Assembly: GCF_001708965.1 (NCBI RefSeq)
Contig: NZ_LVJW01000003.1
Span: 744,001-808,000 of the forward strand
Direction of reading: 5' to 3'
Source of the DNA: Candidatus Thiodiazotropha endoloripes
GTDB taxonomy: Bacteria; Pseudomonadota; Gammaproteobacteria; Chromatiales; Chromatiaceae
Length of the DNA stretch: 64,000 bases
Positions 6,011 to 10,804 of the stretch are shown one piece after another. Each line of letters opens with the position of its first letter. The stretch's first letter is position 1. A program made the position numbers and the translations under genes. Under the pieces are notes generated by a model. It saw nothing but the letters and a program-made list of their open reading frames with translations. It ran no database searches and was not told the origin of the DNA.

Positions 6011-6716
6011 TAACTTCTACTACTTTAGGCTGTGTTAGTTGTTATTCAGCACTTAGGTATCAGAGGACTTAGTCATCGATCCAGGCTTTATTCATGCCTG
6101 TGCTGTTGCGTGTCTGACTATCCTGGCTATTATTTGGTTCAAGTGCAAGCTCTAGAAGCACTCAAATCTATTAGATTATTCTCATCTCTTAATTCACATT
6201 TCGATCCAAGCTGATCGATTCAGCTTCCCCCTTCAGGTTGAACTCACCCCCGCAATGACCCTGGGCGGATGATTCAAAAACAATGCTTAAAATAGGGGTA
6301 TTGGAATCCGAGTCAAACTCTTGACGGGCTGAAATCGAATCTGTTCACAATCCCTCTAAACTCCCCGATCGAGACCCTGACAGACCTTGGCAGGCAATTT
6401 TATTATACGCTGTGTAGAATGTAAGCTATTGAAATATAATTGATATATGTAACTGTTCAATTTTTTTACGATTTAATGTCTGGTCCCGAATTTACTGGCC
6501 TGGGCAGACATTTTCAGCGTTTATCAACAATGTTATCCACAGGAGCTGTGGGTAAATCTGAAAGTTTCGTAATCAAAAGAAGTTGACAATAGTTTCTCTC
6601 TATTGTTTTTAATTGTTGAAACAACTCGTTGTATTTCAATAATAAATTAAATAAAGAGAACCAATCCCATAATCATGGGTATAATCCGCCCTCATTTTTG
6701 TTTGCGGACCACCCCG
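6011..6716. other. Divergent intergenic region between moxR and typA
   Basis: About 700 bases with no convincing ORF. It becomes strongly AT-rich from 6400 onwards. It separates two divergent genes, so promoters for both should lie here; a typA promoter candidate is listed separately. No terminator, repeat or RNA structure was recognised. Confidence 0.6.
6616..6645 (+). promoter_or_regulatory. Candidate sigma-70 promoter for typA
   Basis: TTGAAA at 6616-6621 and TAATAA at 6640-6645 are separated by 18 bases in AT-rich DNA, about 70 bases before the typA start. A second possible -35 (TTGACA) is at 6583-6588, but its -10 match is poor. Assigned by eye. Confidence 0.4.
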
Positions 6717-8528
6717 ATGATCGAGAATCTTAGAAATATCGCCATAATCGCTCACGTTGACCATGGCAAAACCACCCTTGTGGATGAGTTGCTGAAACAG
6801 TCCGGTACGCTCGGAGAACGATTCGGCAAGGTCGAACGAGTGATGGATTCCAACGACCAGGAGCGGGAGCGGGGTATCACCATCCTCTCCAAGAATACCG
6901 CAATCCGCTGGACCGACTACCGTATCAACATCGTTGATACCCCCGGACATGCGGATTTCGGTGGTGAAGTGGAGCGGGTGCTCTCGATGGTCGATTCGGT
7001 ACTGCTGCTGGTGGATGCCCAGGAGGGCCCGATGCCGCAAACCAGGTTTGTAACCCAGAAGGCTTTTCAGCACGGCCTTCGACCCATCGTGGTGGTGAAT
7101 AAGATTGATAAACCCGGATCCCGTCCGGACTGGGTAATCGATCAGGTGTTTGAGCTTTTCGATCGACTTGGCGCCACTGATGATCAGCTCGATTTTCCGA
7201 TTGTCTACACCTCGGCGGTGGGTGGTTATGCAGGTCTGGAAAGCGATATCACAGAAGGTGACATGACACCGCTGTTCAAAGCCATAGTCAGCCACTGTCC
7301 TGCGCCAGATGTGGATCCTGAAGCGCCTTTCCAGATGCAGATTTCCAATCTCGATTACAACAGTTATGTTGGTGCCATCGCAGTTGGTCGAGTGACCAGG
7401 GGAAGCATCAAGCCCAATCAGCAAGTGATGGTGGTGAAGTACGACGGAGAGCAGCATCGGGCCAAAATAGGTGTGGTCTATGGCTATCTGGGGCTTGAGC
7501 GATTTGAAGTCAATGAGGCGTCAGCGGGAGACATTATCGCCATCAGCGGTATGGAAGCACCGAACGTCTCGGATACCCTGTGTGATCCTGACAATGTGGA
7601 GAGTATGCCCCCACTGACGGTGGATGAGCCAACCGTCTCCATGACATTTCAGGTCAATACCTCGCCTTTTGCCGGTAAGGAGGGTAAATACCTGACCTCG
7701 AGGCAGCTTAAGGAGCGGCTTGAGCGGGAGTTGATACACAACGTTGCGTTGCGTGTCGAGGAGGGGACGGATCCTGAGAAATTCAAAGTCTCCGGACGAG
7801 GTGAACTGCATCTTTCGGTACTGATTGAAAGTATGCGGCGGGAGGGATTCGAATTGGCCGTCTCCCGCCCCGAGGTGATTTTCCGCGAGGTCGACGGTGA
7901 GATATGTGAACCCTACGAGCAGTTGACCGTGGATGTGGAGGAGGACCACCAGGGAACGATCATGGAGGCCCTGGGCGCTCGCAAAGGTGAGCTCAAGGAT
8001 ATGGTGCCGGATGGCAAGGGAAGAGTGCGGCTCGACTACATCATACCCTCCCGGGGATTGATCGGTTTTCAGACAGAGTTCATGACCAGCACCTCAGGTA
8101 CCGGACTGATCTACCACGTTTTCGACCACTACGGTCCAGCCCAGCATGGGGGTATCGCGCCGCGTAAAAATGGCGTGCTGATCTCAAACAGTCAGGGAAA
8201 ATCATTGGGCTTTGCCCTCTTTAATCTGCAAGAACGGGGCAGACTCTTCAGCTCACCGGGTGATGAAGTCTATGAGGGACAGATCGTGGGGATACATGCC
8301 AGGGATAATGATCTGGTGGTCAATCCTTTGAAGGGTAAGCAACTGACCAATATACGCGCAGCCGGCAAGGATGACGCCATTATCCTGACACCGCCACTAC
8401 AGTACAGTCTGGAACAGGCGCTGGAATTCATCGAAGACGATGAACTGGTGGAGGTCACACCCCAGGAGATTCGTATCCGTAAGAAGTACCTCAAGGAGCA
8501 TGAACGAAAAAGGGCTTCCCGGGAGTAG
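6717..8528 (+). CDS. typA: Translational GTPase BipA/TypA
   Basis: A 603-residue ribosome-binding GTPase of the EF-G/LepA superfamily, needed for ribosome assembly and growth under stress or cold. The start is placed at 6717 because the family begins [20 protein letters not shown]; an ATG at 6675 would add 14 unconserved residues. GTPase motifs are intact: G1 AHVDHGKT, switch I with RGITI, G3 DTPGHADF, G4 NKIDKP. The EF-G-like domain II, domain III, domain V and the TypA-specific C-terminal domain ([25 protein letters not shown]) follow in order. Length is normal. It is a single gene facing a small-RNA array on the opposite strand just downstream. Confidence 0.95.
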
Positions 8529-8580: not shown

Positions 8581-8704
8581 AAAGAAGAAGCCCAACCGCA
8601 ATCCTTGCGGTTGGGCTTACAGTCGTCGGCTTGGTTGGCTAAGCATTTCTTCCTTGTGCAATCCTTTGCTAATAATCCCTGAAGTAACATCCTTGATGAC
8701 GACA
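8581..8704 (-). ncRNA. Rsm/Csr-type small RNA, copy 1 (five GGA motifs)
   Basis: On the minus strand, a segment of about 124 nt begins near GTCGTC (8703-8698) and ends in a strong GC hairpin (stem 8588-8618) followed by CTTCTTTT, a Rho-independent terminator. It contains five GGA motifs, one exposed in the terminator loop (GCAAGGATTGC). GACGAC near the terminator (8627-8622) can pair with the 5' GTCGTC. Between them sits a GCTT-N8-AAGC mini-hairpin. Multiple GGAs, size, and an upstream TGTAAG-type box pair match CsrB/RsmY/RsmZ RNAs, which titrate the translational repressor CsrA/RsmA. Identity is inferred; the transcript ends are estimates. Confidence 0.75.
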
Positions 8705-8758
8705 ATCATATTTTGACACATAATTTTACATTTACTGTGGGAATACGCACCATCTGCA

Positions 8759-8798
8759 TGTGAGAATTTTCTCAATGAGCTGTAAGATTTTTCCTACA
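8759..8798 (-). promoter_or_regulatory. Paired GacA/UvrY-type boxes upstream of small RNA copy 1
   Basis: Two palindromic boxes: TGTGAGAATTTTCTCA (8759-8774) and TGTAAGATTTTTCCTACA (8781-8798). The known GacA upstream activating sequence is TGTAAG-N6-CTTACA. The near box is centred about 62 bases upstream of the predicted RNA start, a usual place for this activator. The same pair recurs before all four RNA copies. Confidence 0.65.
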
Positions 8799-9032
8799 AG
8801 CTAACCTATTGAAAATTAAGGTTAAAATATGTGTCAAATTTGTGGAAATTGACCCATTTCTGTCATAATCAAACAGAGTTGGCAGAATTCTCTATCTCTC
8901 GGTGGATTTTTTCTTGCATCGCATCTCTGCAGACGGTTTTTATTTTCGCTTTGTGAGGTGGTATGCAGAGCTTGGATGCAATGTCTGAACTTGTTGGGAA
9001 CCATCGAAGCGGATCGGATTTCTTTGGCCTGA
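8799..9032. other. Spacer between small RNA copies 1 and 2
   Basis: This 230-base AT-rich stretch lies upstream of the copy 1 activator boxes and downstream of the copy 2 terminator. It has no counterpart between the other copies, whose spacers are only about 70-80 bases. No ORF or hairpin stands out. It may be leftover DNA from the duplication. Confidence 0.4.
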
Positions 9033-9158
9033 AAAGATAAAAGCCCAACTGCGATCCTTGCAGTTGGGCTTACAGTCGTCGGCTTGGTTGGCTAAGCTTC
9101 CCTTCCCTGCAAAATCCTTTTCGAAGTTTTCCCTTTAGAGACGTCCTTGATGACGACA
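9033..9158 (-). ncRNA. Rsm/Csr-type small RNA, copy 2 (six GGA motifs)
   Basis: Second copy of the same minus-strand RNA. The 5' GTCGTC is at 9157-9152 and its 3' partner GACGAC at 9080-9075. The GCTT-N8-AAGC element is conserved. The terminator hairpin (9041-9071) has GGA in its loop and is followed by CTTTTATCTTTT. Six GGA motifs are present, several as AAGGA or AGGGA in the variable middle. The middle shares little sequence with copy 1 apart from these motifs, the pattern expected if GGA count and structure are selected rather than sequence. Confidence 0.75.
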
Positions 9159-9212
9159 ACTGAATTTTGACACATTTTTTTACAGTGAACATGGGAATAT
9201 TCACAGTTTAAG

Positions 9213-9252
9213 TGTGAGATTTTTCTCTTATGGCCGTAAGAAAATTCTTACT
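9213..9252 (-). promoter_or_regulatory. Paired GacA/UvrY-type boxes upstream of small RNA copy 2
   Basis: TGTGAGATTTTTCTCTTA (9213-9230) and CGTAAGAAAATTCTTACT (9235-9252), the latter with a near-perfect GTAAG/CTTAC palindrome. The near box is centred about 63 bases upstream of the predicted RNA start. Confidence 0.65.
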
Positions 9253-9334
9253 TTACAACTACGGTGTTTGACAGTCGGGCGGTGGTATCTGCATTAGCGA
9301 GATCCGACTCTGTTTGCTGGGAGGGGTAAATAGG

Positions 9335-9462
9335 TGAAATGAAAAAGCCCAACTGCAATCCTTGCAGTTGGGCTTGGTTGTCATCGGCTTGGTTGGCAAA
9401 GCTCCTCGTCCATCTACCATCCATTGTGGCTTGTCCTGTAACACGTCCTTGATTGACGACAA
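9335..9462 (-). ncRNA. Rsm/Csr-type small RNA, copy 3 (six GGA motifs)
   Basis: Third copy. The 5' TTGTCGTC (9462-9455) pairs with GATGACAA (9385-9378); the changed base makes a G-U pair and the helix is extended by two pairs. The mini-hairpin reads GCTTTGCCAACCAAGC. The terminator hairpin spans 9345-9375, with GGA in the loop and a U-rich tail (CTTTTTC). Six GGA motifs are present, including CAGGA, ATGGA and GAGGA. Confidence 0.75.
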
Positions 9463-9516
9463 TTAAATCATGACACGGAATCTCTCGAATTGAATTGGGA
9501 AATGTTACCCTTGTTG

Positions 9517-9556
9517 TGTAAGAATCATCCTGTTGGCGTGTAAGAATTTTCCTACA
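9517..9556 (-). promoter_or_regulatory. Paired GacA/UvrY-type boxes upstream of small RNA copy 3
   Basis: TGTAAGAATCATCCTGTT (9517-9534) and TGTAAGAATTTTCCTACA (9539-9556). The far box is an almost perfect TGTAAG-N6-CTTACA match. The near box is centred about 63 bases from the RNA start. Confidence 0.65.
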
Positions 9557-9623
9557 TGGGCTCTACCCACTGGTTTAATATCTGCTACCGGTGGTGATCA
9601 AGATTGCCAGTTTCACTCGTTTA

Positions 9624-9743
9624 AAAAGTGAAAGCCCAACTGCAATCCCTGCGTTGGGCTTTCTGTCATCAGCTTGTTTTGCTAAGCAACCTGTCCATGG
9701 TTTACTTTGTGTGCTACAAGCCAGTTCTTCCTTGATGATGACG
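9624..9743 (-). ncRNA. Rsm/Csr-type small RNA, copy 4 (three GGA motifs)
   Basis: Fourth and most diverged copy. The closing helix is kept by compensatory change: 5' GTCATC (9742-9737) with 3' GATGAC (9670-9665), against GTCGTC/GACGAC in copies 1 and 2. The mini-hairpin is GCTTAGCAAAACAAGC. The terminator hairpin (9632-9662) carries GGGA in its loop and is followed by CTTTCACTTTTT. Only three GGA motifs remain, so CsrA binding capacity should be lower. Its activator boxes overlap the leader of the divergent peptidase gene. Confidence 0.7.
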
Positions 9744-9798
9744 GGAATATCTTGGCATAAAGTTCTGCCTATTGAAGTGGGAAAATTAACCGGCAACA

Positions 9799-9838
9799 CG
9801 TAAGAATTGTCTTGTCAGAGCATAGGGTGATTCTTACA
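9799..9838 (-). promoter_or_regulatory. Paired GacA/UvrY-type boxes upstream of small RNA copy 4
   Basis: CGTAAGAATTGTCTTGTC (9799-9816) and CATAGGGTGATTCTTACA (9821-9838), both weaker than in the other copies. They end 16 bases before the divergent proline iminopeptidase start, so a regulator bound here could affect both genes. Confidence 0.55.
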
Positions 9839-9853
9839 CTTAACAGATCGATT

Positions 9854-10804
9854 ATGAATGACCTCTATCCAGCCATAGAACCCTATAAGTTACAGCGGCT
9901 TGCTGTTGATCATCACCACCATCTCCACATTGAAGAGGTGGGTAATCCTGCCGGTATCCCTGCGCTTTTTTTACACGGCGGGCCGGGTGCCGGTTGTGAA
10001 CCTTACCATCGGCAGTTTTTTGACCCGGATCTTTACCGGGTCGTACTCTTTGACCAGCGGGGTAGTGGTCGCTCAACACCCCATGCCTCATTGCAGGATA
10101 ATACGACCTGGGATCTGGTTGCAGATATTGAACGAATCCGTGAAGCGCTGAAGATAGATAAATGGTTGCTGTTTGGTGGATCCTGGGGCTCAACCCTTGC
10201 GTTAGCCTATGCTCAAGCCCATCCTGAGCGGGTTACGGGGCTGATCCTGAGAGGCATTTTTCTCTGTCGGGACCAGGAGATCGAGTGGTTTTATCAGCAA
10301 GGTGCGAGTTGGGTTTTCCCCGATTATTGGGAGGATTTTGTCGCACCGATACCTCAGCACGAGAGAGATAATCTGCTGCATGCCTACTACCGGCGATTGA
10401 CCGGTAGTGATGAGATCTCCCGTATGGCAACGGCCAAAGCCTGGTCAGTCTGGGAGGGCAGAACCTCCAGCCTACTGACCAATCAGTCTGTGGTCGGTTT
10501 TTTTTCAGAACCCCATACGGCCCTCAGTCTGGCGCGAATCGAAGCCCATTATTTTGTCAATCATGCCTTTCTGCGGCCTGATCAGCTGCTGAAAGAGGCA
10601 ACACAACTTGCCGGCATCCCCGGGACGATTGTGCAGGGTCGCTATGATCTGATCTGTCCAATGAAGTCTGCCTGGGAGTTGCACCAGGCCTGGCCCGATA
10701 GTGAACTGAAAATTGTCGCGGATGCAGGTCACTCTGCGACAGAATCGGGTATTCGCAGCGCACTGGTGGAAGCCACTCGGCATTTCGCGAGATTGCTCGG
10801 ATGA
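9854..10804 (+). CDS. pip: Proline iminopeptidase (alpha/beta hydrolase)
   Basis: A 316-residue cytoplasmic serine peptidase of family S33 that removes N-terminal proline. Family motifs are present: HGGPGAG (oxyanion loop), DQRGSGRSTPHA, the nucleophile elbow GGSWGSTLAL, and the catalytic His in DAGHS near the C-terminus. The start MNDLYPAIEPY at 9854 fits the family. A 14-residue upstream extension from 9812 would run through the small-RNA activator boxes and is unlikely. The stop overlaps dtd in ATGA (10801-10804), so the two form a coupled pair. Confidence 0.92.
   Translation: MNDLYPAIEPYKLQRLAVDHHHHLHIEEVGNPAGIPALFLHGGPGAGCEPYHRQFFDPDLYRVVLFDQRGSGRSTPHASLQDNTTWDLVADIERIREALKIDKWLLFGGSWGSTLALAYAQAHPERVTGLILRGIFLCRDQEIEWFYQQGASWVFPDYWEDFVAPIPQHERDNLLHAYYRRLTGSDEISRMATAKAWSVWEGRTSSLLTNQSVVGFFSEPHTALSLARIEAHYFVNHAFLRPDQLLKEATQLAGIPGTIVQGRYDLICPMKSAWELHQAWPDSELKIVADAGHSATESGIRSALVEATRHFARLLG

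Follow-up and report, generated by a model that had tools for sequence, protein, structure and literature searches.

Four tandem genes for predicted CsrA-sponge RNAs between typA and pip in Candidatus Thiodiazotropha endoloripes

Why would a bacterium keep four copies of one small gene side by side? The question is raised by a gap of 1.3 kb between typA and pip in the stretch of 64,000 nucleotides analyzed here as a whole and called the window. This gap holds four diverged minus-strand copies of a single RNA gene of about 120 nt, arranged head to tail at window positions 8581-9845 and named U1 to U4. The initial annotation had proposed precisely such copies; all four were located, and its GGA counts of 5, 6, 6 and 3 (plus strand, left to right, that is U4, U3, U2 and U1) were identical on recounting. 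As repeats, the copies U1 to U4 stand at 9625-9745, 9338-9463, 9034-9160 and 8581-8706 on the minus strand; the limits of the predicted RNAs are those listed below. In each unit of the array, a pair of activator boxes precedes an RNA that has a closing helix, GGA motifs and a terminator whose loop contains GGA. In the predicted RNAs, 119-124 nt in length, a 5' GTCRTC can pair with a GAYGAC situated about 70 nt downstream, a short hairpin precedes this GAYGAC, and the terminator comes last. The features are given below, with the bit scores of R1, a model built from the four units together with the lone copy found in Candidatus Thiodiazotropha endolucinida (L004).

6675..8528, plus strand: typA/bipA, a conserved neighbour that converges on U4
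about 8581..8703, minus strand: U4, predicted RNA of ~123 nt with 5 GGA, 145 bits
8618-8588, minus strand: U4 terminator
8644-8629, minus strand: U4 hairpin GCTTAGCCAACCAAGC, the same sequence as in U3
8703-8698 with 8627-8622, minus strand: U4 closing helix, GTCGTC with GACGAC
8773-8759, minus strand: U4 box 2, GAGAAAATTCTCACA
8798-8781, minus strand: U4 box 1, TGTAGGAAAAATCTTACA, exact
about 9034..9157, minus strand: U3, predicted RNA of ~124 nt with 6 GGA, 135.2 bits
9071-9041, minus strand: U3 terminator
9097-9082, minus strand: U3 hairpin GCTTAGCCAACCAAGC
9157-9152 with 9080-9075, minus strand: U3 closing helix, GTCGTC with GACGAC
9228-9213, minus strand: U3 box 2
9252-9235, minus strand: U3 box 1, AGTAAGAATTTTCTTACG, 2 mismatches
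about 9338..9460, minus strand: U2, predicted RNA of ~123 nt with 6 GGA, 125.1 bits
9375-9345, minus strand: U2 terminator
9402-9387, minus strand: U2 hairpin GCTTTGCCAACCAAGC
9460-9455 with 9385-9380, minus strand: U2 closing helix, GTCGTC with GATGAC
9530-9517, minus strand: U2 box 2
9556-9539, minus strand: U2 box 1, TGTAGGAAAATTCTTACA, exact
about 9624..9742, minus strand: U1, predicted CsrA-type RNA of ~119 nt with 3 GGA, 113.8 bits
9661-9632, minus strand: U1 terminator, imperfect stem, tail TCACTTTT
9687-9672, minus strand: U1 hairpin, loop AGCAAAAC
9742-9737 with 9670-9665, minus strand: U1 closing helix, GTCATC with GATGAC
9812-9799, minus strand: U1 box 2, loose, centre at -64, 4 mismatches to the pattern used
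9838-9821, minus strand: U1 box 1, TGTAAGAATCACCCTATG, centre at -87, 2 mismatches
9851..10804, plus strand: pip, an alpha/beta hydrolase gene that diverges from U1; its name, proline iminopeptidase, is that of the initial annotation, and Pfam supports the alpha/beta-hydrolase fold only

No open reading frame overlapping positions 8582-9800 exceeds 74 aa. The structure of the RNA was examined in an alignment of 45 homologues (A8), picked by hand and de-duplicated from sets of 57 and 30 matches, with near-identical rows and one locus that aligns over 199 nt (L008) omitted. Pairing holds in 100% of the cells of the closing helix and in 96.4% of those of the terminator; both partners have changed at 3 of the 6 pairs in the former and at 8 of the 10 in the latter. 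The covariation score reached 0.460 against 0.171 for shuffled alignments, none of 500 shuffles being as high, and pairing fell to 30-59% when the partners were shifted by 1-3 columns as a control. This family thus displays the conserved secondary structure expected of a CsrA sponge. GGA occupies the terminator loop in 45 of the 45 homologues, a count biased, like the other motif counts, by the retrieval of homologues with models derived from the same sequences and sharing these features.

An excess of GGA, also expected of a CsrA sponge, was found for the array as a whole and for U2, U3 and U4, not for U1 alone. The array totals 20 GGA against a mean of 9.4 in mononucleotide shuffles, a fraction of 0.001 of 5000 shuffles being as high. 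With mono- and dinucleotide shuffles respectively, the p values are 0.016 and 0.009 for U2, 0.020 and 0.023 for U3, 0.041 and 0.029 for U4, and 0.41 and 0.32 for the 3 GGA of U1. The folding z-scores are -4.65, -3.41, -2.15 and -2.68 from U1 to U4. A consensus terminator scan recovered the terminators of U2, U3 and U4, among 4 matches on the two strands of the region where 1.4 would be expected, and missed that of U1, which was detected through folding only. The covariance-model search with the Csr/Rsm families of Rfam that the initial annotation had suggested gave a negative answer: Rfam 15 returned no family at its gathering cut-off over the window, no Csr/Rsm family in the array even when E values of up to 10 were admitted, and no match at gathering score in 18 related loci. 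Rfam being blind to these RNAs, the support comes from models built in this analysis, R1 and a broader one, R3, derived from the 45 homologues.

The promoters provide a further line of evidence. TGTAAGN6CTTACA is described as the Gac box preceding rsm genes of Pseudomonas (in the account of PMC11837529) and as a putative box of the csrB genes of Shewanella (in that of PMC3171408). Box positions were measured with TGTARGN6CYTACA for box 1, allowing up to 3 substitutions, and with a loose pattern for box 2, allowing up to 4. A GacA/UvrY box, as expected for a sponge gene, lies upstream of every unit, with 2, 0, 2 and 0 mismatches in box 1 from U1 to U4, and the spacing of 23 nt between the two boxes is common to all units, U1 included. 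Relative to the predicted start, the centre of box 1 falls at -86 or -87 in 20 of 20 array units from five genomes, and that of box 2 at -63 or -64 in 19 of them, the exception being U1 of G152; 12 of 16 single-copy genes have their boxes at the same positions. The exact pattern TGTARGN6CYTACA occurs at two places only in the genome of 4.46 Mb, before U4 and before U2. Tolerating one mismatch gave 7 places in the genome for the Gac box against 23 for the reversed control, and tolerating two gave 6 over the window against 5.1 expected, which is the level of chance. Mismatched boxes not rising above chance, the Gac-box argument rests on the exact sites and on the positions. A sigma-70 scan yielded no minus-strand promoter, its three matches (2.6 expected) all lying on the plus strand; the -10 hexamers, read by eye, are for this reason claimed weakly. 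In four single-copy species (G154, G155, G156 and G158; loci L166, L167, L168 and L170), both boxes are 21 nt closer to the start with the spacing of 23 nt kept, a shift of about two helical turns, as if DNA had been lost or gained.

The initial annotation had named the lack of a CsrA or GacA homologue as evidence against its reading, a condition that the gene content does not bear out. The genome encodes two CsrA proteins, a UvrY/GacA-like regulator and a BarA/GacS-like hybrid kinase, the partners expected of sponge RNAs, the two-component proteins scoring below their curated NCBIfam cut-offs. The regulator, near uvrC and pgsA, obtained 277.9 bits as a top match, just under the cut-off of 280, and the kinase, of 913 aa, 705.9 bits, also as a top match and well under the cut-off of 890. 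The first csrA adjoins the aspartokinase (lysC) gene, and its product scored 115.8 and 98.0 bits with two NCBIfam models; protein names are those of NCBIfam or Pfam, lysC, ate, aat and pgsA having been named by eye. The second CsrA is divergent, 83 aa long with a basic C-terminal tail, and is encoded beside ate/aat (L002:1402-1653). The two paralogues are 41% identical over 51 residues, and the second retains an REE stretch, which we take to be the position of the RNA-binding arginine.

Is the array a peculiarity of this genome? A search with R1 detected the RNA at the typA locus in all 22 genomes of the genus. Of 80 typA loci collected, 44 were also searched with R1. Four copies are present in G000, the genome of the window, and in G063, G150, G152 and G161; 16 of the 22 genomes contain one copy at this locus, and in G151 the contig starts 6 bases before the single visible copy, the length of the array being cut by the contig end. 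In the 21 other loci of the genus that were examined, typA adjoins the RNA in all and pip is found in 19, being absent from L156, where the contig is cut, and from L160. A second, divergent RNA adjoins a DUF1015 gene in 22 of 22 genomes, 11 of them recognized by R1 and the other 11 by synteny, with at least 2 R3 matches in each of the 22. The idea that the array replaces this second locus, prompted by the 11 cases missed by R1, was consequently abandoned. A folK-like gene, read by eye, lies on the far side of the RNA in two of these loci. In the genome of the window, the RNA is located as follows:

C6:252851-252979 (L213; L217:3352-3481): fifth Csr-type RNA, beside the DUF1015 gene

With the four array units, this genome thus has at least five such RNAs. 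R3 matches were obtained in at least 121 of 210 genomes of the order, a lower bound due to stricter filters, which points to a Csr-RNA family unrecognised by Rfam 15. Five matches were reached exclusively by the five array genomes, in agreement with the earlier statement that four genes head to tail are unusual. G086 comes next with four matches; three of these could be placed, on two contigs, and one of the three is weak. Tandem pairs of the RNA were observed in G036, G047 and G037. The literature searched on tandem or multiple Csr RNA genes and on this genus gave no four-copy array, even if one may exist in print; as far as these searches reach, the four-gene array and its RNA family are unreported forms of a known kind.

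The comparison of the five array genomes, that of the window included, is informative about the maintenance of the copies. Invariant columns represent 90, 82, 91 and 91% of the RNAs U1 to U4, 62-81% of the promoters (74% for that of U1), 21-31% of the spacers and 14% of the gap on the typA side. These four islands of conservation between unconserved spacers make all four RNAs, U1 included, look selected. Each unit forms a clade across the five species in a tree of 37 sequences, made up of 20 array units, the 16 single copies and an outgroup (with G151 omitted on account of its contig end), with supports of 100/100 for U1, 97/90 for U2, 100/99 for U3 and 93/94 for U4, in a short alignment that carries a long-branch warning. 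The copies are therefore old and were not homogenised. In a tree of the DUF1015 gene, the six species of the array clade stand on one side of a branch with a support of 100/100. Most simply, the array would have arisen once, by duplication of the single typA-side gene in the ancestor of this six-species clade; the tree being unrooted, it may instead have been lost elsewhere.

The second CsrA has a similar distribution. It was detected in G000, G063, G150, G151 and G161, five of the six genomes of the array clade; those of the last four are 93-98% identical to that of G000 over 83 aa and, as there, encoded beside ate. At the sensitivity of the search, no instance of it appeared among the 16 single-copy genomes of the genus. 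No csrA of either kind was found in G152, perhaps through an assembly gap; G147 yielded no CsrA and G150 the second one only, which points to draft gaps or to the limits of the search. Since the second CsrA and the array are both confined to one clade, their association counts as one coincidence. For Pseudomonas, Moll et al. (cited in PMC7911923) proposed that the numbers of sRNAs and of CsrA proteins are linked. A simple proportionality of this kind is weakened here by genomes devoid of the array: G118, G153 and G159 give two or three CsrA-like matches with one RNA copy at the typA locus, and G136 gives a divergent CsrA only. These proteins were rejected as equivalents of the second CsrA of the array clade, being at most 42.5% identical to it, with no ate match in the 3.0-3.5 kb examined around their genes.

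The architecture, covariation, conservation and Gac boxes together support the earlier reading of these genes as Csr/Rsm-type RNAs, and we consider it very probable that they are four Gac-driven CsrA-sponge RNA genes that were duplicated and kept. We infer that the four are separate sRNA genes of the CsrB/RsmX/Y/Z type, each transcribed from its own promoter to its own terminator. The BarA/GacS-UvrY/GacA phosphorelay would activate each promoter through the boxes located about 63 and 86 nt upstream of the RNA start. The GGA sites of the helix-closed RNAs, one of them always in the terminator loop, would bind CsrA dimers and thereby lift CsrA off mRNAs, as suggested by their structure and by their resemblance to RNAs of this kind. 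All four copies would be retained under selection; together with the fifth RNA, they would raise the sponge capacity freed by one Gac signal, and they may divide labour.

One element does not belong to this scheme. Ahead of the 3' strand of the closing helix stands a hairpin whose loop is free of GGA (8629-8644, 9082-9097, 9387-9402 and related loci). The loop position is occupied by CCAACC in 41 of the 45 aligned RNAs, both paralogous loci included, and by GCCAACC in 39 of them; exact CCAAC is present in 5 of 21 matches from 20 weaker loci chosen for diversity, so that the element changes outside the closer relatives. U1 lacks CCAACC, its loop being altered to AGCAAAAC. CCAACC does not fit what CsrA binds; it might serve as a seed for base pairing or as the site of a second protein. 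Pairing of this loop with the terminator arm GGTTGGG was considered and dropped, the loop being kept elsewhere with unrelated terminators.

This element lies at the heart of an alternative in which the RNAs act chiefly by base pairing, in the manner of the Vibrio Qrr RNAs, with CCAACC as antisense seed and CsrA binding secondary or absent. Like Qrr, they are multiple small RNA genes; they have in common with it the 8-nt UAGCCAAC, and CCAACC extends to both paralogous loci. The match to the Qrr family (18.2 bits, E 2.9) is nevertheless far under its gathering score of 50, and a scan for sigma-54-like sites that tolerated up to 2 mismatches gave nothing on the array's minus strand (78 such sites in the window against 70.5 expected, one of them within the array on the plus strand); the array RNAs thus show neither the Rfam score nor the sigma-54 promoter of a Qrr. 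The Gac boxes and the GGA in every terminator loop suit CsrA sponges, and CCAAC is found in 5 of the 21 matches from the weaker loci and lost from U1. We regard a chiefly base-pairing role as improbable. It is very unlikely, in turn, that the extra copies are passive duplicates heading for decay and devoid of dose function: even if tandem duplication is common and 16 of 22 genomes of the genus have a single copy here, the RNAs are 82-91% invariant against 14-31% in the spacers and the typA-side gap, and the orthology is four-way over five species. Least credible of all is the view that the repeats function at the DNA level, or by stopping read-through between typA and pip, and not as RNAs. Hairpin repeats between genes are common, and the U4 terminator faces the end of typA; against this, promoter boxes at a fixed distance belong to the repeat, the strands of the closing helix covary about 70 nt apart, and a homologue exists at an unrelated locus.

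The status of U1 is more delicate. With its three GGA and its altered hairpin loop, it is probably specialised. One may go further and accept only U2-U4 as full CsrA sponges, U1 being a weak sponge or having been recruited to another role, such as the binding of the second CsrA or of a target by base pairing; we give this view slightly less than an even chance. It accounts for the absence of GGA enrichment (p 0.41), the changed loop, the two mismatches in box 1 and a long stem branch (1.04) in the unit tree, yet U1 is 90% invariant in the five genomes. Against this view, U1 still has its two-box promoter, the first GGA site and GGA in the terminator loop, and its closing helix is intact, a compensatory change having occurred in it. 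A more elaborate proposal, which appears rather unlikely at present, is that the array and the second CsrA co-evolved, with U1 adapted to one of the two CsrA proteins and U2-U4 to the other; if true, the CCAACC hairpin would furthermore make most members of the family dual-function RNAs that titrate CsrA and also pair with, or bind, a second partner.

The preferred reading, that of four sponge genes, has several parallels. The rsmX-1 and rsmX-2 genes of P. brassicacearum, described in PMC7911923 as tandem duplicates of 110-111 nt encoding a Gac-controlled sponge RNA, are likewise short and duplicated in tandem; as far as that description extends, they number two instead of four and have different neighbours. 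The array RNAs differ from RsmX/Y/Z of Pseudomonas by their lack of an Rfam match and by their two boxes per promoter. In Shewanella, according to PMC3171408, csrB1 and csrB2 depend on BarA/UvrY and are neighbours with separate transcripts, which adjoin each other in S. putrefaciens CN-32 and have a transposase gene between them in S. oneidensis; as reported there, they are two copies of about 420 nt with numerous CsrA motifs. P. syringae, in the account of PMC6715622, has the sponge RNAs rsmX1-5, rsmY and rsmZ alongside several RsmA proteins, and resembles the present case in combining many sponge-type RNAs with more than one CsrA/RsmA, the array having no Rfam match. Repeated GGA motifs are shared with CsrB and CsrC of E. 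coli, where they bind CsrA; PMC11882849 gives 22 and 14 motifs for these two RNAs, against 3-6 in each short RNA here. Sister species with one or with four tandem copies at the same locus form a natural series, by which it becomes possible to test whether bacteria keep several Csr RNAs for the sake of dose, of robustness or of a division of labour, in the presence or absence of a second CsrA.

Two further forms were observed during the survey. Beside typA, L008:5819-6017 holds a 199-nt version with two GCCAACC elements, perhaps an internal duplication or a fusion of two units. In a different genus of the family, another type of Csr-like RNA (L234, L235 and L241) starts near CACCGTCA, carries TTCTGCCA and has GACGG ahead of its terminator.
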